From the NCBI RefSeq assembly GCF_003336875.1, contig NZ_QGNJ01000023.1:1-36757 (forward strand): a DNA stretch of 36,757 nucleotides. Direction: 5' to 3'. The DNA is from Oleisolibacter albus. GTDB taxonomy: Bacteria; Pseudomonadota; Alphaproteobacteria; Azospirillales; Azospirillaceae. Positions 19,985 to 33,173 of the stretch are shown piece by piece (the stretch's first letter is position 1; each line of letters starts with the position of its first letter). The notes under the pieces are model-generated. The model did not search any database. It was not told where the DNA came from and worked only from the letters and a program-made list of their open reading frames with translations. The translations under genes and the position numbers were made by a program.

Positions 19985-20653
19985 CTATGCCCTGCCCGCC
20001 CGCGGGCTGCTGCGAGCCTGGGGCGGAATGGTGAAGCGCTGGACGGCTTTGTAGATGAGGTCCGGCAGCGTCTCGGCCTCCAGCTTCGATTTCAGGATGG
20101 AGCAGATGTTGGCGATGGTCTTGTAGCTGACGCCCAACTCGTCGGCGATGGCGCTGTAGGACCGCCCTTCGGCCAGAAGACCGAGCACATCCGCCTCCCG
20201 ACGGGTCAGATCCCGCAGGTCCGGCCGTTCATGCAGGCGGGAGAGCAGGGCGACCTCCATGGCAAGGTCGGGGCCGATGAAGGGCTGTCCGGCCTTCACC
20301 GTCGTGAAGGCCCGGTCGATCTCGGCGGGTGGCGCGTCCTTGTGGATGTACCCCGTCGCCCCGGCCGCCAGCGCCTTGCGCACGATGACGGGGTCGTCAT
20401 GCATGCTGAAGATCAGGATCGGCGTGTGCTTGTCCACGCTGCGGAAGCGGCGCAGGAAGCCCACGCCGGCCAGCCGGCGCCGTCCGATCGACAGGTCCAG
20501 GACCAGGATGTCGGGGAACGTCCTGCGGTAGATCCGGAACGCCTCCAGCAGGCAGGAGGTGGTGAAGACCTGTCCGACGCCATGGCTTTCCACCAGCCGC
20601 CGGAAGCCCTGGAGCACGATGGGATGGTCATCAATGATCAGAACACCACTCAT
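19985..20653 (-). CDS. NarL/LuxR-family response regulator
   Basis: A protein of 222 residues. The receiver domain (1-118) has the acidic pair Asp8-Asp9, phosphorylatable Asp53 in ILVLDLS, and Lys105 in GYIHKDAPP. The C-terminal LuxR helix-turn-helix (about 148-205) reads LTRREADVLGLLAEGRSYSA then LGVSYKTIANICSILKSKL. AGGGGA lies seven bases before the ATG. It follows its kinase by 39 nt in the same direction and sits at the end of the mxa gene series. By analogy with the MxaY/MxaX kinase-regulator pair of Paracoccus denitrificans, it may activate mxaF transcription. The palindrome at 33327-33344 is a candidate target. The analogy is functional; orthology is not established. Confidence 0.92.
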   Translation of the reverse strand: MSGVLIIDDHPIVLQGFRRLVESHGVGQVFTTSCLLEAFRIYRRTFPDILVLDLSIGRRRLAGVGFLRRFRSVDKHTPILIFSMHDDPVIVRKALAAGATGYIHKDAPPAEIDRAFTTVKAGQPFIGPDLAMEVALLSRLHERPDLRDLTRREADVLGLLAEGRSYSAIADELGVSYKTIANICSILKSKLEAETLPDLIYKAVQRFTIPPQARSSPRAGRA

Positions 20654-20692
20654 GGAACATCCCCTTCGCCGCAGCGCTGTTGACGTGGCTGT

Positions 20693-22171
20693 TCACAACC
20701 CCCGCTGCTCGCTGATCCGGTTGCCATCCACCGGCAGCACAATCTCCGTCATGGTCCGGTCCCCGATCCGTGTCGGCGGTGTCCACTCGCCCCGCAGGGC
20801 ACGCAGACGCTCGGACAGGCCGGACAGGCCATAGCCCGGCTTGACCGGCAGGGCGATTCCGGCCGCACCGTCATCGGTGACACGGGCCCGGACCAGGGTT
20901 TCGCCCCGCCCTCCCCGCTCCTGCGCCAGGATGATGACGATATGCCGGGCCTGCCCATGGCGCAGCGCATTCAGCACACTTTCCTGAACGAAACGGTGGA
21001 CGGTCAGGTCGATCAACGCGCCATAGGGGACCGGCCCCGTCGTCGCCTGCAGTTCGATGCGGGCATCGGGGGTGATGCGCTGCATCGTGGCCACGATGTC
21101 CTCGACCAGTTCGGCCACCGGCACCTCGCCCAGCGACATGGGTTGCAGGGTCGAGATGATCCGGCGCGTCTGTTGCTGAACCGCCTGTGTCATCTCCGCC
21201 AGCGTACCCAGCCCGTCCCGGAGCCCGCCCCGGTCCGGTCCCTTGCCGTCCTGCAGGGAGCGGCTGAGACTTTCGATGACGGTCCGCAGGCCGAACAGAT
21301 GCGGCCCCAACTCGTCATGCAGATCATTGGCGATGCGCCGCCGCTCCGTATCCTGCGTCACCAGCAGCCGGCGGTTGAGATCGCGGTTCTCCGCTTCCTG
21401 GTCGGCCAGCCGCTCGGCCAGTTCATTGAAGCGGTCGGCGATATAGGCCAGTTCGGGCACGGCCAGCCGTCCGATACGGACATCCGGCCGGCCGGTACCG
21501 AGGTGGCGCATCTTCTCCGCCACCATCAGCAGCGGCGAGAAGATGCTGTTCAGCCCGATAACAGCACTGCCGACGACCAGCGCCGACGACAGGGCCAGCA
21601 GCAGAAGGACGAAGCGGACATCCCCCCAGACCTCCAGGATCTCGTCATGGGCATGGCTTTCCAGCACCAGCGTCCAGGAGCGGTCCGGGGGGCGGTCCTG
21701 GACCATGACGGGGAACTCGGCCCGCAGCGTGGGAACATCGATCAGGCTGGCGAACCATAGCGGCACCGCCTCATCGCCGGTGCCGGCCGGAATCAGGGGC
21801 GGCTGCACGGGAACCGTCTCCCCCCCGGGGCCGACGGCATAGATCCGGACATGGCGGGGGGGAACCATATCCGGGGGCAAGGCCGTGGGTGAAAAGGGGA
21901 GCCCTGCGGGCGTGGCCCGGTCCATCTCCCTTTCCCTGGACTGGAGATAGTGACGTGCCAGACCAAAGGATGCGGTCACCTCCCGTTCCACCGCCGTCCG
22001 GGCATTCACCAGCAGACCCACGGCCATCAGGGTCCAGACCAGCAGGCCGAAGCCGCTCAGACACAGGATGACCCGGACGCGGAAGCTCATTCCCAGTCGG
22101 CGGGCCACATGCTCCCGCCGGGACCGCCCCTGCCGCACGGGGCCGGACAGCCAAGACGCGCTGATGGACAT
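20693..22171 (-). CDS. NarX/UhpB-type sensor histidine kinase
   Basis: A membrane kinase of 492 residues. The first span is at about 29-55, a periplasmic sensor segment of about 130 residues follows, and the second span is at about 185-207. A HAMP region to about 257 and a coiled coil lead to the HisKA_3 dimerisation site TERRRIANDLHDELGPHLFG (phosphorylated His285). The ATPase part contains FVQESVLNALRHG (N box) and PGYGLSGLSERLRALRGEW (G box). This is the kinase class that pairs with NarL-type regulators, and such a regulator is the next gene. The start at 22171 is preferred to 22195 or 22090 on the basis of the GGGGGGAA upstream. A periplasmic sensor fits detection of methanol-oxidation status, but the ligand is unknown. 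Confidence 0.92.
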   Translation of the reverse strand: MSISASWLSGPVRQGRSRREHVARRLGMSFRVRVILCLSGFGLLVWTLMAVGLLVNARTAVEREVTASFGLARHYLQSREREMDRATPAGLPFSPTALPPDMVPPRHVRIYAVGPGGETVPVQPPLIPAGTGDEAVPLWFASLIDVPTLRAEFPVMVQDRPPDRSWTLVLESHAHDEILEVWGDVRFVLLLLALSSALVVGSAVIGLNSIFSPLLMVAEKMRHLGTGRPDVRIGRLAVPELAYIADRFNELAERLADQEAENRDLNRRLLVTQDTERRRIANDLHDELGPHLFGLRTVIESLSRSLQDGKGPDRGGLRDGLGTLAEMTQAVQQQTRRIISTLQPMSLGEVPVAELVEDIVATMQRITPDARIELQATTGPVPYGALIDLTVHRFVQESVLNALRHGQARHIVIILAQERGGRGETLVRARVTDDGAAGIALPVKPGYGLSGLSERLRALRGEWTPPTRIGDRTMTEIVLPVDGNRISEQRGL

Positions 22172-22266
22172 GGATGGCGTTCCCCCCACAGGCACCCTTC
22201 CAAGCGAGCCTTTCCAAAGGCGCCATCAGCGTATGGTGATGCGGGGCGAAGACACCAGCAATTGGG

Positions 22267-23244
22267 CTAAGGTAGCATGCCTGCCGGCACCGTGGCGATC
22301 TGCCGGGGACCGGCCGCCATCGGCAGTTCGGTGGTGGCCTCTGTCCGCAGATCGACCAGTGTAACTGTATCGGAGAACCAGTTGGCGACCACCGCCCGGC
22401 CGCCGTCGGGCTGGACCACGACCCCCTCGGGATAGCGGCCAACCCTGACGCTCCCCACCACCGCTCCCAAGTTTCCATCAACCCGGACCAGGCGGCCGCG
22501 CTCCTGGTCGGTGACCAGAACCTCGCCGGTTCCCGGCACCACCGCAACCCCGTAGGGCATGCCGCCAACGGGAATGCGGGCCGCCTCCAGCCCGGCGGCG
22601 AGATCCACCACCGACAGATCGCCGCTGCGGATATTGGCCACGAACAGTCGGGTTCCATCGGCGGACAGGGCGGCGGCGAACGGAGCCTGCCCCACGGCAA
22701 TCGTTGCGATGCGGACCGGCGCCGCAAGATCGACAACCGACACGGCATCACTGTCACGGTCGATGCTGTAGGCCCGGCCGCGGGCGGCATCGACCAGAAC
22801 CGCGGACGGCGCCCTGCCAACGGAGATGCGCTGCGGCGGCCGGTCACCTGCCACATCCAGCAGCAGCAGGGCATCGCCGCTCCAGTCGGAGACGAGCAGA
22901 CGCCCATCGGGGACCAGGGCCAGTCCGAAGGGCTGGCCCCCCGTGGCGATCTCCGTCACCACCCGACCGGCGGACAGGTCCACCACGCTGATGCGACCGA
23001 GATCAGGATGTCCGACATAGGCGGTGCCCCCGTCCGCAGTGAGGGCGACACCGGCGGGGGCCGCCGCCAGCGGAATCGTCGCGCACGGGGCCGGACGGTC
23101 CGGCGCCGGAACGGTCAGCCCCAGAACGGTCAGCCGTGCCGCCCCCTGGCTGACCACGGCAAAGGCGGGCGCGCAGCCGGCGGCGGCGGCCCCGGGCAAC
23201 AGCAGGGCGGCCACCAGCAGCAGGACTGGCACAGCGGGCGACAC
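22267..23244 (-). CDS. Periplasmic YVTN-type beta-propeller protein in the mxa operon
   Basis: A protein of 325 residues with an N-terminal signal peptide (hydrophobic VPVLLLVAALLLPGAAAA) and then about six or seven repeats of some 40 residues. These have the pattern I/V-x-V-G-x-x-P-x-x-V/L-A-L-x-x-D-G-x-x-L/A-x-V-x/D, for example TGGQPFGLALVPDGRLLVSD and VGRYPEGVVVQPDGGRAVVA. This is the YVTN/YncE beta-propeller fold, common in the periplasm. GTG at 23244 is the likely start, five bases after the MxaL-MxaD stop; it needs no extension into the preceding gene. It occupies the place of mxaE in the canonical mxa order, but I cannot confirm that it is MxaE. A scaffold or sensor role in the dehydrogenase system is inferred. 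Confidence 0.82.
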   Translation of the reverse strand: MSPAVPVLLLVAALLLPGAAAAGCAPAFAVVSQGAARLTVLGLTVPAPDRPAPCATIPLAAAPAGVALTADGGTAYVGHPDLGRISVVDLSAGRVVTEIATGGQPFGLALVPDGRLLVSDWSGDALLLLDVAGDRPPQRISVGRAPSAVLVDAARGRAYSIDRDSDAVSVVDLAAPVRIATIAVGQAPFAAALSADGTRLFVANIRSGDLSVVDLAAGLEAARIPVGGMPYGVAVVPGTGEVLVTDQERGRLVRVDGNLGAVVGSVRVGRYPEGVVVQPDGGRAVVANWFSDTVTLVDLRTEATTELPMAAGPRQIATVPAGMLP

Positions 23245-23249
23245 CGGCC

Positions 23250-24779
23250 TTATTCCATGGCCTTGGCCAGACCGGCCAGACCGGTCTGGAAGAACCGTGT
23301 CATGGCGGTGACCGCCGCCTCGTCCGACAGCTCGGGCGGCGGTTCGTTGGTGGTGTCTCCCCGATAGAAGCGGCCATCCCAATCGACGCGGCAACCCCGG
23401 CCGTCCTCGGAGCGGGTGACGCCCATGCGGGCCGTATAGAAGCTGACGGGCAGCGCCTTGAGATTCTCCACCGACAGCCGGTAGCTGAGGGACTGGCTGG
23501 TGCCATCGACATCGTCCAGCCGCTCCGTGATCGTCTCGCCATTCTCCAGCGTCAGCTCCCGCGTGCTGCCCGGCGCGCTGGCGCCACTGGCGCGGACGGC
23601 CCGGACGGCGCTGTGCCATTGCCCGATGGCGCCGAAATCCTTGAGCTTCGTCCAGACCAGTTCGCACGGCGCCCGGATATCGACATGCTCCGCCACCTTC
23701 TGCGGTGTGGGGCCATGCGCCGAGGCCGGAAGCGGCGCCAGACCCGACCCGGCCAGCGCGGTGACGAACAGCAGTATTCGGAAGGAGGACACGGGAACAC
23801 CTCTTGCCGTTGGAATTGCAGACTGGAAGACGGACGGCCGCCCACCGCCGGGGGACCGCATACGAAGGTACGAGAGCAGCAGCGCCAGCAGGGCGGCGGC
23901 ACCGGGCAGGGCCGAAAGATCCCGCATGGCCGGCACCGCCAGGGGGCGTGCCTGGGTCCGGATGGCCTGGACCAGGGCATCGGCCGTTTGCAGGCGGGCA
24001 TAACCCAGGCCGAAATGCCGGGCCAGCAGCCGGAGATGCTCCTCCCGCAGCTGTGTCAGATGCTCACTGCCGGCCCCGGCCTCGCCATAGGGGTTGTTGC
24101 GGGGATGCCAGCCGGGGCGGCCGGCGGCATCCGGCGGCGGCGCACCCGTGCGGGACTCGTGGGGCACATCGGTGGCGGCATAGACGCCGATCTCCCGGCC
24201 GCGCTCGTCGTATTTCGGAATCGGCACCGGCGCCGCCCCGCCGACACCGATCAGCAGCCCGGCGCCCGGTCCCGGATGTACCGGCGGTCGCCAGTCCCAG
24301 GGCAGCGGCGGCGCCTCCTGGCCGTCGGTCAGGAAAAGGATGTCGGAGGACTGCGCCGCGGCGAGATCCAGCCCATCCCGTACCCCTTCGGCGATGCGGC
24401 TGTCCCCCTCCCAGGCCATGCGCCAGTCGAGTCCGCGGATCGCATCGGTCAGCGGGGCGAAATTCTCGCAGACCTCGACGGGGGTGAAGAGGGAGACGCT
24501 GCGCCGCTCGGTGAAGATGGCCAACCCCACCCACGACCCGCAGGGCAGCCGGGCGACCACCTCCGGCAGGACCGTGCGCACCCTGTCCAGCCGGCTGACC
24601 GCCGCGTCACCGCTGCGCTGGTCACGAGCATTCATGCTGCCGGTGATGTCCACCACCACGGTCAGGCTGTAGGTGATGCGCTCTCCCGGCAGGCTGGGCC
24701 GCAGCGATGCCAGCAGCGCGGCCAGAAGGCTGGCGGCCAGGAGCAGGGAGCGCAGGGCCGGAAAGCGCCCCCGCCTCAC
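23250..24779 (-). CDS. mxaLD: MxaL (VWA) joined in frame to MxaD (SRPBCC), methanol dehydrogenase maturation
   Basis: One open frame of 509 residues covers two normally separate proteins. Residues 1-329 are MxaL: an N-terminal membrane anchor (SLLLAASLLAALLASL), a von Willebrand A domain with the metal site DITGSMN (Asp44), ILFLTDGQEAPP, and a second span near 290. Residues 330-509 are MxaD: a signal-peptide-like RILLFVTALAGSGLAPL ending PASAHG, then TPQKVAEHVDIRAPCELVWT of the SRPBCC/polyketide-cyclase fold. MxaL is implicated in calcium insertion into methanol dehydrogenase, and MxaD in MxaF-cytochrome cL interaction or maturation. The start is a GTG overlapping the mxaK stop. At the junction a GTG at 23792 has AGAGG seven bases upstream, so MxaD may also be made separately (23250-23792). 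Confidence 0.9.
   Translation of the reverse strand: MRRGRFPALRSLLLAASLLAALLASLRPSLPGERITYSLTVVVDITGSMNARDQRSGDAAVSRLDRVRTVLPEVVARLPCGSWVGLAIFTERRSVSLFTPVEVCENFAPLTDAIRGLDWRMAWEGDSRIAEGVRDGLDLAAAQSSDILFLTDGQEAPPLPWDWRPPVHPGPGAGLLIGVGGAAPVPIPKYDERGREIGVYAATDVPHESRTGAPPPDAAGRPGWHPRNNPYGEAGAGSEHLTQLREEHLRLLARHFGLGYARLQTADALVQAIRTQARPLAVPAMRDLSALPGAAALLALLLSYLRMRSPGGGRPSVFQSAIPTARGVPVSSFRILLFVTALAGSGLAPLPASAHGPTPQKVAEHVDIRAPCELVWTKLKDFGAIGQWHSAVRAVRASGASAPGSTRELTLENGETITERLDDVDGTSQSLSYRLSVENLKALPVSFYTARMGVTRSEDGRGCRVDWDGRFYRGDTTNEPPPELSDEAAVTAMTRFFQTGLAGLAKAME
23798..23804 (-). promoter_or_regulatory. Internal ribosome-binding site for MxaD
   Basis: AGAGGTG on the minus strand lies at ideal spacing before the GTG at 23792, in frame within the joined mxaL-mxaD reading frame. 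The codons after that GTG encode a typical cleavable signal peptide. This supports internal initiation of a stand-alone MxaD of 180 residues. Confidence 0.6.
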
Positions 24780-25357
24780 GGCAGCCCTCTCGGCCGGCCG
24801 GGAAGATCGGTCCAGACGCTCATGGGCTTGGCATCCTCGTCCGGCTCGCCCTGCTGCCGCGGGAAGTCGCGCACCAGCCGCATGGCCAGATCCAGATTGA
24901 ACTTGGCATCATAATCATCCGGCACGACAGCGAGCGCGCGCCGGTAATGGTCCTTGGCAACGCGGATATTGGCCGCGGCATCATCGATCTTCTGCGCCTC
25001 CATGGCGGCGAAAGCCGTGCGCAGCCGTCCGTTGCCCAGATTGTAGAGCAGCATGGCCAGGCGCTGCGGCTGCTGCCGCTGCTGCATCGGCTCGATCAGG
25101 GCTTCCGCCTCTTCCACCCGGCCTCGGTCGAGCAGGAAAGCGGCGCGGGCCAGAAGCAGGTCCGGACGGGCGGACTCCGGCACCGGCCGGTCCTGTCCGG
25201 CGGCCAAGGCCAGCACCTCCGCCCGGGTGCGCCGCCCGTCCCAGGCCTGCCAGCCGAACAGGCCGGCGGCCAAGGCGAAACCGGCAGCCAGCAGCCCCAG
25301 CAGCAGGCTGCCGGGATCGGAGGGACGGAACGGAGCGGGGCGGCGGGCGGGGTTCAT
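24776..25357 (-). CDS. mxaK: MxaK, methanol dehydrogenase assembly protein
   Basis: A protein of 193 residues with one N-terminal membrane span (about 16-38, LLLGLLAAGFALAAGLFGW) and a helical, TPR-like periplasmic part containing ARAAFLLDRGRVEEAEALIE and DDYDAKFNLDLAMRLV. MxaK belongs to the MxaA-C-K-L group, which in Methylobacterium is required for calcium insertion into the dehydrogenase. The ATG at 25357 overlaps the mxaC stop as ATGA, and the gene's own stop overlaps the mxaL GTG, so it is translationally coupled on both sides. Identity rests on the family pattern and on the exact canonical position between mxaC and mxaL. Confidence 0.88.
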   Translation of the reverse strand: MNPARRPAPFRPSDPGSLLLGLLAAGFALAAGLFGWQAWDGRRTRAEVLALAAGQDRPVPESARPDLLLARAAFLLDRGRVEEAEALIEPMQQRQQPQRLAMLLYNLGNGRLRTAFAAMEAQKIDDAAANIRVAKDHYRRALAVVPDDYDAKFNLDLAMRLVRDFPRQQGEPDEDAKPMSVWTDLPGRPRGLP

Positions 25358-26415
25358 CGCCGCTCCCATCGGGACCGGACCAGTGGGAGGCGCCCGGCGC
25401 CGGCCGGAACCAATGTCCGCTCGGCCAGCGCCGCCAGCAGCAGCAGGCCGGTGAAGACGGCCGCCAGCCGATAGAACAGCGGCGCCAGATCCCGTCGCGG
25501 CAGCATCTCGCGATAGGTGATCGGCTTGGCTTCCAGCCGGTCGATCTCGGCGATCGCATCCGCGACCGCCTGCGGGCTTTGTGCCTCCAGGGCGCGATAG
25601 GGCACACCCAGTGTCTGCAGGAACAGGTGCAGGTGGCGCTCCGGTCGGGTCTGCGGCGTATCGGCGGTGCCATCGGCCGGTGCGTCCTGCAGGCCGTTGC
25701 TGCCCCTGGAGCGGATGAACAGCCAGTAGAGATTGACAGGCATGCGGGCGAAGGCGCTGCGCAGCATGGCCTGCACCTCGCGCTCGATGACGCCCGCCCC
25801 GTCGGAGACCAGGATCAGCGCCCGGGATTCACCGGCGGTCCGCTCGTCGAACAGGCCGATGGCCAGGGCAAGCCCGCGGCCCACATCGGTATAGGCGAGG
25901 CCGGGCCTATCCATGGCGGAAATGGCGGCGCGCACGGCGTCGCGGTGGTCGGTCATCGGCAGGATGCGCAAGGGAGCGGTCGAAAACGCCGCCACACCGA
26001 TACGGTCGCGTGGCCGGCGGTTGACGAAGTCGAGAAGCAGCCGCTTGGCGGTGGCGGATTTCGCCTCCTCTCGCCCGTCGGGCTGCTGGTCGGCGAAGCT
26101 GTTGTCCATGCTGGACGACCGGTCCAGCAGCAGGACGATATTGGCCCCGGTGCCCTGGCGCGTCACCGTCTGCCCACCGCCGACCGGCCCGGCCAGCGCC
26201 AGGATGAGGCAGGCTCCGGCGCAGAAACCGGCAGTCCGCAGCCCCAGATCCACCAGGCGGGACAGCCCGTCCGGCGGCACCTGATCGAGGGCCGGATGGT
26301 CGCTGGCCCGGTACGGCCACCGCAGCAGTGGCACGGGCAACAGCACCAGCAGCAACAGGACCCACGGATGATCCAGCGTCAGGGACAGCGGCAGGGCTGG
26401 GTGCAGCGGGATCAT
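25354..26415 (-). CDS. mxaC: MxaC, VWA-domain methanol dehydrogenase assembly protein
   Basis: A protein of 353 residues. Two spans lie in the N-terminal part (about 18-34 and 60-78); a von Willebrand A domain starts at about 92, with an intact metal-ion site LLDRSSSMD (Asp98, Ser100, Ser102) and LILVSDGAGVIE. A final span near the C-terminus is LAAVFTGLLLLAALAE. This layout is that of MxaC, part of the calcium-insertion apparatus. The start at 26415 is chosen because it makes the ATGA overlap with the mxaA stop; open frame upstream merely runs antisense-like through mxaA. It probably works with MxaL and MxaS, the other metal-site proteins of the operon. Confidence 0.92.
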   Translation of the reverse strand: MIPLHPALPLSLTLDHPWVLLLLVLLPVPLLRWPYRASDHPALDQVPPDGLSRLVDLGLRTAGFCAGACLILALAGPVGGGQTVTRQGTGANIVLLLDRSSSMDNSFADQQPDGREEAKSATAKRLLLDFVNRRPRDRIGVAAFSTAPLRILPMTDHRDAVRAAISAMDRPGLAYTDVGRGLALAIGLFDERTAGESRALILVSDGAGVIEREVQAMLRSAFARMPVNLYWLFIRSRGSNGLQDAPADGTADTPQTRPERHLHLFLQTLGVPYRALEAQSPQAVADAIAEIDRLEAKPITYREMLPRRDLAPLFYRLAAVFTGLLLLAALAERTLVPAGAGRLPLVRSRWERR

Positions 26416-27326
26416 GGCCGTCCCCGTTCGGCCCGGGCCAGACGGCGGGCAAGGCCGGCCAGGGCGGCGGTGGAGGAGCGGGCGAGCGCCTGCTCCGGGG
26501 CTCGGCCGAAGAACAGGCTGCGCGATGCCGTGAAGAAGCCGGCGATCTCCGCCGACAGGGGCCGGTATTGCGGGCGCACAGCCAGGAATCCGGCCACATC
26601 CGCGGCGACGAGGCGATGACCGGAGGCACGGTCGAAGGCCCGATGCAGCGCCAGGAAGGCCGCCCGCTGCGCCTCCGCCCCTGCCCCGCGCCGGTTCAGG
26701 CGGCGGATGGCCGCCGCCGCCGCAGCGAACGGACGATCGGGCCGGGCGAACGGTCCCCAGGCCCGGTGCCGGGCCAGGAGCAGCAGGGCCACCAGGGCCA
26801 GGCCAGCCGACAGGGCGGCCCGCCACTCCTGGGGGCGGACATTGATCACGGCCGCGACAGCGTCCGGCTTCATAGCCTCCGGCCGGCTCGACGCCATGAT
26901 CTCACGCAGCGGCGAGGTGACGAAGCTCCAGGCCGGAACGGTGACGCTGAGGCGCTGCCCGTCGCGCACGAACGCCAGGGTGCGCGGGGGAATGGTCATG
27001 GCCCGCGGCTCCAGCGGGGCATAGAAGGTCTGATAGGTGAACTCGATGCGGTGGAGGCGGCGCCCGTCCCGCCCCTTCTCGTCCACGACCGTCACCCCGC
27101 GCAGATCGAGCCAGTAGTCCAACGCCCCCGGCTGTGGCAGCGAGGCAGGATCGATCCGGAAGCCCTGCTCCAGCAGCACCGTGGCCCGCACCGGGATGAC
27201 ATCCCCGATCCACCAGCCATGGCTATGCGCCGGTGCCAGGATGGCCTGCTCCGCCGCCGTGGCTGACCGCGGCGGAGACAGCAGTAACAGGGCCAGCAGG
27301 GACAGGACGGGCGCGGCCGGCGTCAT
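26412..27326 (-). CDS. mxaA: MxaA, methanol dehydrogenase calcium-insertion factor
   Basis: A protein of 304 residues. A signal peptide (about 1-25, LSLLALLLLSPPRSATA) is followed by a periplasmic domain with HSHGWWIGDVIPVRATVLLE and YQTFYAPLEPRAMTIPPRTL, one membrane span near 170-185, and a cytoplasmic helical tail rich in Arg and Ala. In Methylobacterium, mxaA mutants make an inactive dehydrogenase that can be rescued by high calcium. The ATG overlaps the mxaS stop as ATGA, and the stop overlaps mxaC in the same way. Identity is supported by the sequence and by its canonical position. Confidence 0.92.
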   Translation of the reverse strand: MTPAAPVLSLLALLLLSPPRSATAAEQAILAPAHSHGWWIGDVIPVRATVLLEQGFRIDPASLPQPGALDYWLDLRGVTVVDEKGRDGRRLHRIEFTYQTFYAPLEPRAMTIPPRTLAFVRDGQRLSVTVPAWSFVTSPLREIMASSRPEAMKPDAVAAVINVRPQEWRAALSAGLALVALLLLARHRAWGPFARPDRPFAAAAAAIRRLNRRGAGAEAQRAAFLALHRAFDRASGHRLVAADVAGFLAVRPQYRPLSAEIAGFFTASRSLFFGRAPEQALARSSTAALAGLARRLARAERGRP

Positions 27327-28201
27327 GCCGCCCCCCCCTGGTCCCCCAGGGCGTCGAACAGGGCATCGACATCGATCTGATCGGTGATTTCGATCGGGGC
27401 CAGACCATGCTCGATCAGCGTGCGCCGGACCGCCTGCCGCTGCTCGTCCGCCGCCGCCCGCCAGCGTTCAGCCACGGACGGACGCATCAGCATCAGCCGG
27501 CGGCGGCCGGTTTCGAGATCGTGCAGGGTCACCAGCCCGAAAGCCGGTGATGGCGCATCGATGGCGCTGTCGCGCAGCAGAATCGGCCGGACATCGTGAA
27601 TGGCCAGCTTGTCCAGCACCAGGTCCAGCTGGTCGCGGGGAAAGGTGAAGTCGGACAGCAGCAGCACGATGGAGCGGGCGGCGGGCAGAAGATCCACCGC
27701 CTCCAGCAACCCGGCCGCTCCCGCCCCCTGCGGCTCGACGGCGGCGGTCAGCGCCGCGACGGTGGCCGCAGACCCGCGCCGCCGCAGCGCCGGCAGCAGA
27801 CTGTCGGGAAACACGCGCTCCCCGGCCAGGATCAGGCCGAAGCGGTCGCCGGACCGCTCGACGGCCGTGGCCAGACCGATACAGAGCGCCCGCGCCAGAT
27901 CGGCCCGTGACGTCCGCCCGACCGAACCCATGGAGCCGGAGAAATCCACCAGCAGGATGACCCGGGCATCCACGCTCTGCTCGACATCCCGCACCCAGAG
28001 GGTGCCGAACGGATCACGGGCCGAGGCGCGCAGGTCGAGACGGCGCGGGTCGGGCCGGTCCAGCAGGGGCACAAGCCCGGTGAAAGCGCCGCCGGCACCG
28101 CTGGCACGGCTGCGATGACGCCCGGGCCGGGCGCCGAACAGACGCCCGCGGACGCGGTAGGCGATGTCGGCGAAGCTGTCGGCCAGTCTGTCGCTGTCCA
28201 T
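27323..28201 (-). CDS. mxaS: MxaS, DUF58/VWA-like methanol oxidation protein
   Basis: A cytoplasmic-looking protein of 292 residues without signal peptide. DLRASARDPFGTLWVRDVEQ and ARVILLVDFSGSMGSVGR are typical of DUF58 proteins, and the metal-ion site is intact (Asp86, Ser88, Ser90). DUF58 proteins commonly pair with MoxR ATPases in chaperone-like assembly systems, and here the MoxR partner MxaR lies immediately upstream (10-nt gap). The ATG at 28201 has GAGGGG at good spacing; an in-frame ATG at 28273 would overlap mxaR and begins with unrelated residues. It likely forms part of the MxaR-dependent assembly machine. Confidence 0.91.
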   Translation of the reverse strand: MDSDRLADSFADIAYRVRGRLFGARPGRHRSRASGAGGAFTGLVPLLDRPDPRRLDLRASARDPFGTLWVRDVEQSVDARVILLVDFSGSMGSVGRTSRADLARALCIGLATAVERSGDRFGLILAGERVFPDSLLPALRRRGSAATVAALTAAVEPQGAGAAGLLEAVDLLPAARSIVLLLSDFTFPRDQLDLVLDKLAIHDVRPILLRDSAIDAPSPAFGLVTLHDLETGRRRLMLMRPSVAERWRAAADEQRQAVRRTLIEHGLAPIEITDQIDVDALFDALGDQGGAA

Positions 28202-28211
28202 GGCGGTCCCC

Positions 28212-29354
28212 TCAGCGCGGCGTCGGCACGGCATCGAAGACGGCCCGGCAGAGCGCGGGCATGATCTGCTCACGCCGCGCCTCGTAGGCCGGTGCCAGGA
28301 AGAGCCGGTGCGCCATCACCGGCACGAACACCAGCCGCAGATCCTCCGGCACCACATAGTCGCGCCCGTCCAGCCAGGCCGCCGCCCGTGCCGCCCGCAC
28401 CAGCGCCGAGACACCACGGGGGCTGGCACCGCCGATCACCAGCCGGTCCATGGCCACCCCGGGAAGCGAAATGCCGTGGCGATGGGGAAATTTCAGCGCC
28501 TCCCACAGGGCGAAGGTATAGGCCTCCACCTCCTCGCCGGCCTGGACATGATCCTGGATGGCGGCGGCGACGGCATTGAGCCGGCGGAAATCGATGACGG
28601 CATCCGGCAGGCCGGCGATCAGCCGGTCGGCATCATGGAACCGGGGGCTGAAGGCCAGTTGCCGGCGCAGATGCGGATCGGCGGGCGCCTCGATGCCGAT
28701 CTCCATGAAGAACCGGTCCCGCGCCGCCGCCGGCAGTTCGAAGGTCTCCTCCCGCTCCACCCGGTTGCGGTCGGCGAAGACCAGAAGGTCGGGAAAACCG
28801 TAATCCTGCTGGAAGGCACTGACGCTGCGTTCCGCCATGATGCGCAGCAGCAGCGCATGCACCTGCGGCCGGGCCCGGTTGATCTCGTTGAAGAAGAACA
28901 CGGCCAGATCCCCGCCCCGGCGCAGGATCGGCCCCGGCTGGATGCGCGGCCGCCCGTCCTCGGCCACGAAGGCAGAATACAGGATGTCGTTGGGCATCAG
29001 GTCGATGGTGCCCTCGATCCGCTCGAACGGCCCGCCGAGCGCGCGGGCGACAGCCCGCAGCAGGGTGGTCTTGCCGACACCCACATCCCCCTCCAGCAGC
29101 ACATGCCCGCGGCAGAAGACAGCAAGAACCAACAGCCGCAGCGCCTGCGCCTGACCGATGACCGCCTGGGCGACGGTCTGCTCGAAGGCCAGCGCCTGCT
29201 GGCGCCAGTGGGCGAGGTCGATGACCGGCGGTACCGGACCGGGAACCACGGGATCAAGGGGAGGATCGGAGGGCAAACGCATCGGTCCCATGCAGCAGAC
29301 GGGCCTCGGGAAAAGGGGACGAGATGCCGCCCGTGCTGATGACACGGGCAGCAT
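28212..29354 (-). CDS. mxaR: MxaR, MoxR-type AAA+ ATPase
   Basis: An AAA+ protein of up to 380 residues. Walker A is GDVGVGKT (89-96), followed by RIEGTIDLMPNDILYSAF, typical of MoxR proteins. The Walker B position reads FFFNEINRARPQVHALLL, with Asn156 where most AAA+ proteins have Asp, while Glu157 is kept. The C-terminal lid has SPRGVSALVRAARAAAWLDG. MoxR ATPases were named from this operon and act as chaperones in enzyme maturation, here of methanol dehydrogenase together with MxaS. The start is uncertain: 29354 fits the spacing after mxaI (21 nt), but ATGs at 29291 and 29282 lie before the region conserved in the family. Ribosome sites are weak for all three. Confidence 0.92.
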   Translation of the reverse strand: MLPVSSARAASRPLFPRPVCCMGPMRLPSDPPLDPVVPGPVPPVIDLAHWRQQALAFEQTVAQAVIGQAQALRLLVLAVFCRGHVLLEGDVGVGKTTLLRAVARALGGPFERIEGTIDLMPNDILYSAFVAEDGRPRIQPGPILRRGGDLAVFFFNEINRARPQVHALLLRIMAERSVSAFQQDYGFPDLLVFADRNRVEREETFELPAAARDRFFMEIGIEAPADPHLRRQLAFSPRFHDADRLIAGLPDAVIDFRRLNAVAAAIQDHVQAGEEVEAYTFALWEALKFPHRHGISLPGVAMDRLVIGGASPRGVSALVRAARAAAWLDGRDYVVPEDLRLVFVPVMAHRLFLAPAYEARREQIMPALCRAVFDAVPTPR

Positions 29355-29375
29355 CTTCCGCCGGCAGGGCGCCGG

Positions 29376-29663
29376 TCATTTCGGGATCTTGGAGACGTCG
29401 TAGACGAAGCTGCCGGTCTTCTTGAGATGCGCCACCCGCTGGGCATTGCGCTTTTCCATGGCGGCGATGGACTGCGCCTGCTTGTTCAGCTCCATCGGGT
29501 CATGCTGGGGATCGTATTTCGAACCCTGGATCTTCTCGGGATAACCCGGCTTCGGCTCCCAGCAGTTTCCCGGGGCCTTGCATTTGGTGCCGTCATAGGC
29601 CAGGGCGCCCGGCGCCAGTCCGGCGACAAGGATCGCCGCCGCAACAGCAAGATATGTCCGCAT
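29376..29663 (-). CDS. mxaI: MxaI, methanol dehydrogenase small (beta) subunit
   Basis: A protein of 95 residues: a 22-residue signal peptide ending PGALA, and a mature chain starting YDGTKCKAPGNCWEPKPGYP. The Cys28/Cys34 pair corresponds to the conserved disulfide. The Lys-rich helix MELNKQAQSIAAMEKRNAQR wraps the large subunit in known structures. The mature length of 73 residues equals that of known MxaI. GGAGGAG precedes the ATG at 29663. Presence of MxaI, which lanthanide XoxF enzymes do not need, supports an alpha2beta2 calcium-type enzyme. Confidence 0.97.
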   Translation of the reverse strand: MRTYLAVAAAILVAGLAPGALAYDGTKCKAPGNCWEPKPGYPEKIQGSKYDPQHDPMELNKQAQSIAAMEKRNAQRVAHLKKTGSFVYDVSKIPK

Positions 29664-29713
29664 GATCGCTGCTCCTCCCACAGGGTTATGGTTGAAAGAT
29701 CGATCGACGGCCG

Positions 29714-30247
29714 TCATTCGGCCGAGGCCGTCGTCTTCGGGAAGGGTTTGAAGCCTTTCCGCTGTTCCGGCGTCAGCCAGATCGCCGTGTCCGGGGCGCC
29801 GGTGTAGAAATGCCGGACCCAGCTCATGCCCAGCAGCATCTCGTCCAGGGTCAGATGGCCGTATTGCGGCCCCATCTGGCCTTTCGCACCGCCGAAGACC
29901 GTCCGGAACAGCCCGGCATCGGTGTCGTTGCCGGGATAGGTCCAATAATCGTCGTTCAGGCCGGGGCCGATCTTCCCTTCCCCGACGTGACCGTGACAGC
30001 CGGAACAGGCGGTCAGGTAGATCTCCTCGCCGCGCTTCAGCGTCGCCGGGTTTTCATTGTAGATGTTGACCCCGGTTGCCAGGAACGTCTTCACCGCCTC
30101 CGTATCCTTGCCTTCGGGAAGCGCGGAGCTCAGATCAAGCGTCTCCCCGGTGACGACATTGAAGAGCTGGATGTCGGCGACGGCGGGAAGCGACAACGCG
30201 ATTGCTGCGGCGGCACAGGCCAGACCGTAGACTCCCTTTTTCTTCAT
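29714..30247 (-). CDS. mxaG: MxaG, cytochrome cL (electron acceptor of methanol dehydrogenase)
   Basis: A periplasmic c-type cytochrome of 177 residues. The signal peptide covers about 1-24 ([20 protein letters not shown]); one haem site CSGCH lies at Cys81-Cys84-His85. Met125 in [11 protein letters not shown] is the likely sixth ligand, and [19 protein letters not shown] is characteristic of cytochrome cL. It takes electrons from PQQ in MxaF and passes them on to a class I cytochrome c and oxidase. The ATG at 30247 follows AAGGACG; upstream open frame overlaps mxaJ and is spurious. It lies 25 nt after mxaJ. Confidence 0.96.
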
Positions 30248-30272
30248 TGCTTCGTCCTTCTGCGAAGGGGCA

Positions 30273-31142
30273 TCAGCTGCCCAGGGGCAAGAGGGGGATG
30301 CCTTCCTCCTCCAGGATGCGGCGGATGTCGGCGCGCACCTTGGGCAGGGCCGCGTTGATCTCGGCCAGCAGGGAGGCATCGTCCTTGCGCACCCCGATGG
30401 CCTGGGCATAGTGCAGCGGCACGATCTTTCCGTCCGGCCGGGGGATGTCGTTGTCGATGAGCTGCATGCGCACCGGCACGCCGGAGGCCTTGACATAGCG
30501 GGCCACGTCGGGGGCGAAGGCGATGGCAAGATCGGCCTCGCCGCTGGTGACTTCGCTCACCAGCCGGGCGGCTTCGACATTGTTGTAGCTGTTCCGCCGC
30601 GACTGGAAGTTGATCAGGCTGTACAGGTAGGCGGCATTGTCCTCCCATTTGCCCGTATATTTGAGGATGGTCTCTCCCGGACCATGGAAGCGGATGGCGA
30701 AGCGGCCGAGATCCGGCCGGCCGGCATCCTCCCACTTCGTCCCGGCAAACTGCCGGTCCTCGCGGCTGACGAAGACATAGCCGGTGCGGTAGATGGCATC
30801 GGTGGTCAGCATGCGCTCGTCATCCACATCGACACCGACCACCACATCGCAGGCACCGGCGTTGAGAGAGTCGCGGACCAGATAGATGGCGTACTTGTCG
30901 GTGAAGACGAACTCGGCCTTGCGGCCCATGGCCTTGGCCAGGCTGGCGGCGATCCGGTTCTCGAAGCCGGTGCCGTCGCCGCTGGAATAGGGCGCCTCCT
31001 TCGTCGAGGCACAGATGCGCAGGGCCGGCTCCTTCGCGGCGCTCGCCGCCAGGGCGGCCGAACCGCCGGTCAGGATGGCACTCAGGGTGGTGGTGACGGC
31101 AAGGCCGGCAAGCCATCGCGCACGCAGGACGGGCGCACTCAT
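30273..31142 (-). CDS. mxaJ: MxaJ, periplasmic solute-binding-like methanol oxidation protein
   Basis: A protein of 289 residues. The signal peptide starts at [16 protein letters not shown] and ends around ALAAS; the mature part is a type II periplasmic binding-protein fold with [40 protein letters not shown] and [15 protein letters not shown]. MxaJ is required for an active dehydrogenase, probably as an assembly chaperone for MxaF/MxaI. The ATG at 31142 has GGAGGA upstream and starts directly at the signal peptide; an ATG 45 nt further upstream is unlikely. It is preceded by a strong stem-loop after mxaF. Confidence 0.95.
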
Positions 31143-31277: not shown

Positions 31278-33173
31278 TCAGCCGCCCTTGCGGGGCGCCC
31301 ATTCACCAACGTTGATGTCCTCGGTGTACGGGCTCTTGCCATCCAGCGAGAACACCATCACGCCGCCCCCCATCTGCGTGTAGTTCGCCAGCTTCTTGAA
31401 GGCGCCCACGGCCCCCAGACCGGCGGTCGGGTCGGTCAGGTCGAAGACCAGCCCCACACCGGGCCAGCCACCCACCCCGTAATTGATGGCCACATACTGC
31501 ACGCCCTTGTGCTCATAGGTCATGGGATGGCCGATGACGCCGGAGGGCAGCTTGAACTTCCACAGCAGCTCGCCCGTGTCGGCATTGCGGGCCTTGATGA
31601 AGCCGTCCAGCGTTCCGTAGAAGACCAGACCGCCCGCCGTGGCCATGGTCCCGCCCCAGACGGCGAAACGCTCCATGACCTCCCATTTGTAGCCGCCGGT
31701 GATGGCGTTGTAGGCCTTGACCTGCCCCAGCCCTTCATAGCCCTGACGGTCGCCCTTCGGCCCCGGATACATGTCGAGCGTGGCGCCGACGAAGAACTGG
31801 CCGGCCCGGTAGGGCAGCATGAACGGTTCCCAGTCCATGCAGATATGGTTGATGCCCATGAAGAACAGGTTGCGGGCGGGATCGAAGCTGTCGTGCCCCT
31901 GGTTGTGGTAGCCCATGGCGGAGGGACAGATATCGCGCCCCTTATGGTCCATGCGGGTGCCGAACTCCGGGTCACGCTGCGGCAGCCCGGTATCGAGCCG
32001 GACCTGTTTGACCCAGTTCACCGTCTCGTCCAGCTTATCGGCGGAGATCAGGTCGCCGCGTTCGCGGTCAAGCGTGTAGACGATGCCGTTGCGGTCGGGA
32101 TGGGTCAGCAGCCTGCGGTCGCGGCCATCCTTGTCCTTCTGTTCCGACAGCATCATGACGTTGACGCCGGCATAGTCCCATTCGTCGTGGGGGGTCTTCT
32201 GATAGCCGAACTTGGCCAGTCCGGTGTCGGGATCGCGGCCCCAGATGGTCATGGTCCATTTGTTGTCGCCCGGCCGCATCGTCTCGTTCCAGGGCGCGGG
32301 ATTGCCGGAACCGTAATAGAAGAGATCGGCCTTGGGGTCGTAGGCATACCAGCCCCAGTTGGTGCCGCCGCCGATCTTCCAGGCCTCGCCTTCCCAGGTG
32401 TTGGTGCCAAGCCCCTTCTGGCCGAAATGCGGGTTGTGGATATTGAAATCGTCGGCCAGCAGCAGTTCCTTGTCCGGACCAGTGGCATAGGCGCGCCAGA
32501 CCTGCTCCCCGGTCTTGACGTTATAGGCCGTGACATAGCCGCGGACACCCAGTTCCGCGCCGGATGAGCCGACCAGGACCAGATCCTTGACGACATAGGG
32601 CGCGATGGTCAGGGTGGAGCCGACCTTGATGTCGGAATTCTCCATCTTCCAGCGCTCGGCGCCGGTCTCGGCATCCAGCGCCACGATGTGGCCGTCCAGC
32701 TGTGTGCGCAGGATCAGCGGCCCCACATCCTTGTCGCCCGGCCAATAGGCCAGACCGCGGTTGACCACATCGCAACAGGCCACCGCCCGCGCCGTCGGGT
32801 CCTGCTTGGGCTTGTTCTGCCACAGGATCTTGCCGGGCTGGTCCAGCGACAGGGCGAAGGTGGTGTTGGGATAGGGGGAATGCACGTACATCTTCCCGCC
32901 AACGACCAGCGGCGTGCCCTCATGGCCGTGCAGAACACCGGTGGAGAACGACCAGGCGGGCCGCAGCTGCCTGACATTGTCCCGGTTGATCTGCGTCATC
33001 GGGCTGAAGTTCTGTTCGCTGTAGGTCCGGCCGGGCAGTATCCAGTTCTCATTGCTCTTCGACAGCTCGACGAGCTTGTCATTGGCCTGGACCTGGGATG
33101 ATAGAAGACAGACTCCACCGGCGAGAAGAGCTGCAACAGCGGCGTGTGACGCCGCAGTCCTGGGCAGACTCAT
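31278..33173 (-). CDS. mxaF: MxaF, PQQ-dependent methanol dehydrogenase large subunit (calcium type)
   Basis: A protein of 631 residues with a 30-residue signal peptide ending SSQVQA. It is an eight-bladed PQQ quinoprotein that oxidises methanol to formaldehyde in the periplasm. All landmark residues of M. extorquens MxaF occur at exactly +30: the vicinal disulfide Cys133-Cys134 ([10 protein letters not shown]), Glu207 and Asn291 as calcium ligands, catalytic Asp333 in [10 protein letters not shown], and Arg361. Residue 335 is Ala; lanthanide XoxF enzymes have Asp there, so this is the calcium form. GGAGG lies seven bases before the ATG. It is the first gene of a long minus-strand series and has the promoter region 33174-33529 upstream. 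PQQ synthesis genes are not in the window. Confidence 0.98.

Follow-up and report, generated by a model that had tools for sequence, protein, structure and literature searches.

In the window analysed here (the whole stretch of 36,757 nucleotides from Oleisolibacter albus, contig NZ_QGNJ01000023.1), an MxaL-type VWA protein and an MxaD-type SRPBCC protein are joined within a single frame at 23250-24779 on the minus strand. Does this frame make one tethered protein, or does the cell still make two? The available text of PMC6028718 assigns calcium insertion to MxaACKL, and that of PMC7391723 assigns to MxaD a stimulation of the methanol dehydrogenase-cytochrome cL interaction. An earlier note on this DNA had allowed for a fusion, a free MxaD or both.

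Layout of the fused frame

The frame starts with GTG at 24779 and runs through 509 codons (509 aa) with zero internal stops; both Pfam domains score above cut-off, and the earlier claim that no stop separates the two parts was confirmed. All coordinates below are on the minus strand. The MxaL part consists of an N-terminal membrane helix (residues 9-25, 24705-24755; a helix in the model, hydrophobic segment 6-28), a VWA domain (residues 40-154, 24318-24662; Pfam VWA_2, 35.3 bits, cut-off 27) and a C-terminal membrane helix (residues 290-308, 23856-23912; a helix in the model, hydrophobic segment 287-307). A VWA_2 domain with these two helices is what was looked for in MxaL. It is followed by a linker (residues 309-329, 23793-23855) of low GC3, which is basic in all three fused proteins found (K+R/D+E of 5/0, 10/1 and 9/4). 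The Shine-Dalgarno-like AGAGGTG (23798-23804), recognized from its sequence and anti-Shine-Dalgarno pairing, precedes an internal GTG at residue 330 (23790-23792, first base 23792). The MxaD signal peptide occupies residues 330-354 (23718-23792), with a predicted cut at A354/H355 (ASA/HG), and mature MxaD (16.9 kDa) has the SRPBCC fold and covers residues 355-509 (23253-23717; Polyketide_cyc2 match at residues 360-509, 84.5 bits, cut-off 27.4). The AGAGG, GTG start and signal peptide that had been read at the junction are thus all in place, and the second part has the SRPBCC domain behind a putatively cleavable signal peptide, cleavage being judged from the -3 and -1 residues, that was taken to define MxaD.

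The fused protein was modelled with AlphaFold2 from 45 hand-picked rows drawn from 23 loci or the window (mean pLDDT 85.7, pTM 0.60). The SRPBCC part exceeded a pLDDT of 90 and the VWA part was mostly good, with a weak stretch near residues 151-240; the join, mostly below 50 from residue 313, is predicted to be unstructured. Solved relatives were distant SRPBCC chains by sequence and, among the 50 best by structure, PYL/Bet v 1-like folds; neither search returned anything bearing on an MxaL-MxaD fusion.

The mxa cluster around the fusion

The cluster comprises the PQQ methanol dehydrogenase large subunit (31278-33173), a solute-binding MxaJ-like gene, a cytochrome c and the dehydrogenase small subunit, followed by a MoxR-type ATPase, a DUF58 gene, genes in the MxaA, MxaC (VWA) and MxaK positions, the fusion and a beta-propeller gene. 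The mxa letters are assignments from position and domain. Neighbouring genes and synteny with Methylobrevis place the MxaL part between mxaK and mxaD, and both Methylobrevis operons show an identical gene order from the cytochrome through to the propeller gene. The mxaC/mxaK and mxaK/mxaL pairs overlap as ATGA and GTGA, respectively. The possibility that this genome encodes an additional MxaD was rejected: an MxaD search gave one match only at E 0.001.

The propeller gene after mxaD (22267-23253) is of the YVTN/NHL type and lies in the same place in M. pamukkalensis, M. albus and locus L124. Beyond the cluster stand a histidine kinase (HisKA_3) and a LuxR-type response regulator (19985-22195), for which no match was found within the compared flanks of those three loci. 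The mxa cluster (22267-30529) is closest to Pleomorphomonadaceae (Methylobrevis). The group of the window's own family holds Azospirillum halopraeferens, and the other mxa pairs of that family are placed elsewhere in the tree; together these placements suggest horizontal transfer of the operon into the window's genome.

The open frame is genuine

A sequencing or assembly error that conceals a stop codon would remove the question altogether. The window gene is known from a single assembly, and among 11 genus members searched no other had an mxaL match at 1e-10, which leaves some room for such an error. The same fusion is, however, open in Methylobrevis pamukkalensis (L031; 55% identity over the best segment) and M. 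albus (L044; 57%), and these two nearest fused relatives stem from other assemblies, so that a lone error is unlikely. At the join in the window all frames are stop-free from 266 bases before the internal GTG to 238 bases after it. An erroneous single-base indel in this stretch could therefore not mask a stop ahead of mxaD; only a substitution error could. In each of the two Methylobrevis fused genes a stop does occur in one other frame shortly ahead of the start, at -17 and -7. Sequencing error was rejected as the main explanation, and we regard it as very improbable.

Distribution and ancestry

The first comparison covered 90 loci with both genes, in which the fused cases were the window (counted twice), M. 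pamukkalensis and M. albus. Loci were added from 397 genomes of the order of genome G361 (75 matching, 30 loci compared) and from the Methylobrevis family (20 genomes); the entries L116 and L117 duplicated the two Methylobrevis loci already in the comparison. The full sample comprised 146 loci, 122 of them with both genes, and removal of 22 duplicates left 100 distinct pairs. From the scan of the genome collection the best 80 of 181 relatives were used; because the ranking was by similarity to the fused query, the sample favours fusions.

The join is not confined to the window: comparison of mxaL-mxaD junctions across mxa operons, a check named in the earlier note, gave 3 fused genes among the 100 distinct pairs (the window, M. 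pamukkalensis and M. albus), all in one clade, and fusion arising in many lineages was not seen. Within the Methylobrevis family the pair was present in 3 of 20 genomes, fused in two and split in one (L124). In the family of O. albus, 6 of 82 genomes had an MxaL match at 1e-10, and the remaining five have separate genes. A class-wide search matched 6 of 385 genomes at 1e-30, with no further open fusion among them, and 11 plasmid records gave a match.

The window, M. albus, M. pamukkalensis and the split L124 form a clade in the 100-row tree (SH-aLRT 99) and again in a second tree of 39 chosen rows of the 100 (support 100/100); the trees did not resolve the branching order within it. In L124 the two genes overlap by TTGA, which contains both the mxaL stop and the mxaD start and is preceded by an identical AGAGGTG. 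A clade of the three fused genes without L124 was not rejected (p-AU 0.334), so a single fusion with a later split and several fusions are both compatible with the tree. The mxaL tail of L124 (L124:2401-2460) extends 59 codons beyond the equivalent of residue 292, against a median of 33 in separate pairs; long tails may thus have preceded fusion in this clade.

Start signals and cut site at the join

An internal start that shares frame and stop with the long product is indicated, from the sequence, by a start codon and start-region signals. All three fused genes retain the Shine-Dalgarno-like site, the start codon, the lowest-GC3 stretch of the frame and weak RNA structure. The lowest-GC3 12-codon windows overlap the internal start or sit just before it (GC3 of 0.33 in both the window and M. 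albus, and of 0.50 in M. pamukkalensis); in M. pamukkalensis the 12 codons strictly upstream have a GC3 of 0.75, with no deep dip. Among the other listed genes of the window, 7 of 4573 windows were as low, all confined to codons 1-15 of two listed ORFs. Anti-Shine-Dalgarno pairing in the three genes was -7.1, -7.1 and -7.6 kcal/mol, equalled by 5-6% of 234 background codons, and RNA structure was as weak in 5%, 8% and 1% of the codons of the three frames (weaker than at 92-99%). Each single signal is modest and the background was the window's own genes only; jointly, pairing and structure of the window's site were matched by 0 of 234 background codons at thresholds set from that site. In base composition the join is like a start region. 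These signals indicate that mxaD would still be started independently and are silent on the amount of precursor.

The three fused proteins also keep a full signal peptide ending in AxA/HGPTPQK, which is the cut site of the separate MxaD proteins. HGPTP starts the predicted mature end in 99 of 100 rows and HGPTPQK in 84; Ala occupies both -3 and -1 in 84 rows, including all three fused, and small residues do so in 99, the exception (L002) reading ASAE before HGPTP. The signal peptide core of M. pamukkalensis MxaD (L031:7030-7066) contains LAAC upstream of the AxA site, which resembles a lipobox motif.

A merger that would leave two proteins

Because mxaD retains a start signal and a cut site of its own, two separate proteins are probably still produced. 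The reading that we consider probable is a genuine merger of the two genes, specific to this clade, that hardly alters either product and supplies MxaD by two routes, a cut precursor and an internal start. Translation from the mxaL GTG encounters no stop and would produce a 54.5 kDa MxaL-MxaD precursor. The C-terminal helix of MxaL would return the chain to the cytoplasm and the MxaD signal peptide would then act as an internal signal; the topology (helices flanking the VWA part, basic linker, signal peptide) permits a cut by signal peptidase I at A354/H355. The products of such a cut would be a 37.6 kDa MxaL that stays in the membrane with one additional helix and a 16.9 kDa MxaD free in the periplasm. 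Alongside this route, the internal Shine-Dalgarno site and GTG at 23792 would give an ordinary pre-MxaD (19.4 kDa), probably the larger share, and this supply would keep MxaD in excess over MxaL. As far as the final products are concerned, the fusion probably changes very little. That it was kept in three of four clade members speaks against this and could hint at a use. A further reading, which we hold possible but doubtful, is that internal start and signal-peptidase release together bring each MxaL to the membrane with an adjacent MxaD, at the site of methanol dehydrogenase maturation, while the extra MxaD is set independently.

In Methylosinus trichosporium OB3b, the available text of PMC3615186 lists expression values of 1137 and 1077 for mxaD and of 191 and 201 for mxaL, an excess of 5-6 times, and its authors think that mxaD likely has its own promoter. 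Under lanthanides, MxaD protein of M. trichosporium decreased more than MxaL (available text of PMC12482762). Both observations fit an independent supply of MxaD, and the listed ratio is not what a strict 1:1 fusion would produce.

In a rival reading, a stable, membrane-tethered MxaL-MxaD is itself the working form and holds MxaD beside the metal-insertion complex. The frame has stayed open in three of four clade members despite wide divergence, and the topology would place both domains in the periplasm. Against it, the signal peptide and cut site are fully preserved, as is the mxaD start region, the join is unconserved and predicted unstructured, and L124 is split; we think a lasting tether improbable. 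Of the outcomes allowed by the earlier note, production of both forms is best supported, by the open frame and by start features in all three genes, and a lasting tethered form is not favoured. Its further proposal, that a lasting fusion would couple calcium insertion with the MxaF/cytochrome cL step, found no support, given the cleavable signal peptide, the start-region composition of the join and the mxaD excess in the available M. trichosporium data.

Neutral read-through is somewhat less remote, though still unlikely. Here the stop would have drifted off, the long product would be minor or degraded at its tail, nearly all MxaD would come from the internal start and the precursor route would have no role. 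The preserved start signals and the split member agree with it, and so does the ease of fusion. Among the 97 separate pairs, 34 lie in a shared frame (33 with exactly one intervening stop) and 63 in different frames (61 with the mxaD frame open back into mxaL), so that in 94 of the 97 a single mutation, either loss of the stop or an indel of the appropriate sign, would be enough for fusion. Free tolerance predicts fusion in more lineages, however, and it was seen in one clade only, in a sample ranked by likeness to the window gene. This single occurrence despite easy fusion suggests that fusions are usually lost or disfavoured, or simply rare.

If, as the two-product merger predicts, the precursor is indeed synthesized and processed, it would be a natural example of a bacterial membrane/periplasm polyprotein, as the rhizobial cytochrome b/c1 precursor reportedly is, and would be a hint at a shared site of action for MxaL and MxaD. 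For annotation, a single call of the fused frame hides mxaD.

Comparison with known systems

Searches of titles and abstract openings in the open-access literature found no description of an mxaL-mxaD fusion, and the available text of the Methylobrevis paper PMC11237726 does not mention one; publications naming both genes, in their available text, include PMC13300288, PMC12482762 and PMC3615186. A search of the open-access literature for polyprotein precedents gave nothing useful beyond the title on Bradyrhizobium fbcH. Canonical alphaproteobacterial mxaL and mxaD share domains, order, MxaD cut site and expected products with the fused gene; they are two genes, the mxaL stop lying near or overlapping the mxaD start, whereas the fused gene is one frame with no stop. 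Bradyrhizobium fbcH, in work attributed to Thony-Meyer et al. in 1991, is said to encode a cytochrome b/c1 precursor in one frame, a membrane protein followed by a periplasmic domain that carries a signal peptide and is released by cleavage. The fused mxaL-mxaD likewise joins a membrane protein and a signal-peptide domain in one open frame; the proteins are unrelated, mxaL-mxaD has an internal start in addition, and its cut is predicted. Two-polypeptide phage endolysins use in-frame internal starts and a single shared stop (PMC9430671, available text). Like them, mxaL-mxaD is predicted to give a long and a short product with a common frame and stop; unlike theirs, its short product would be a secreted protein that is encoded by a separate gene in relatives.
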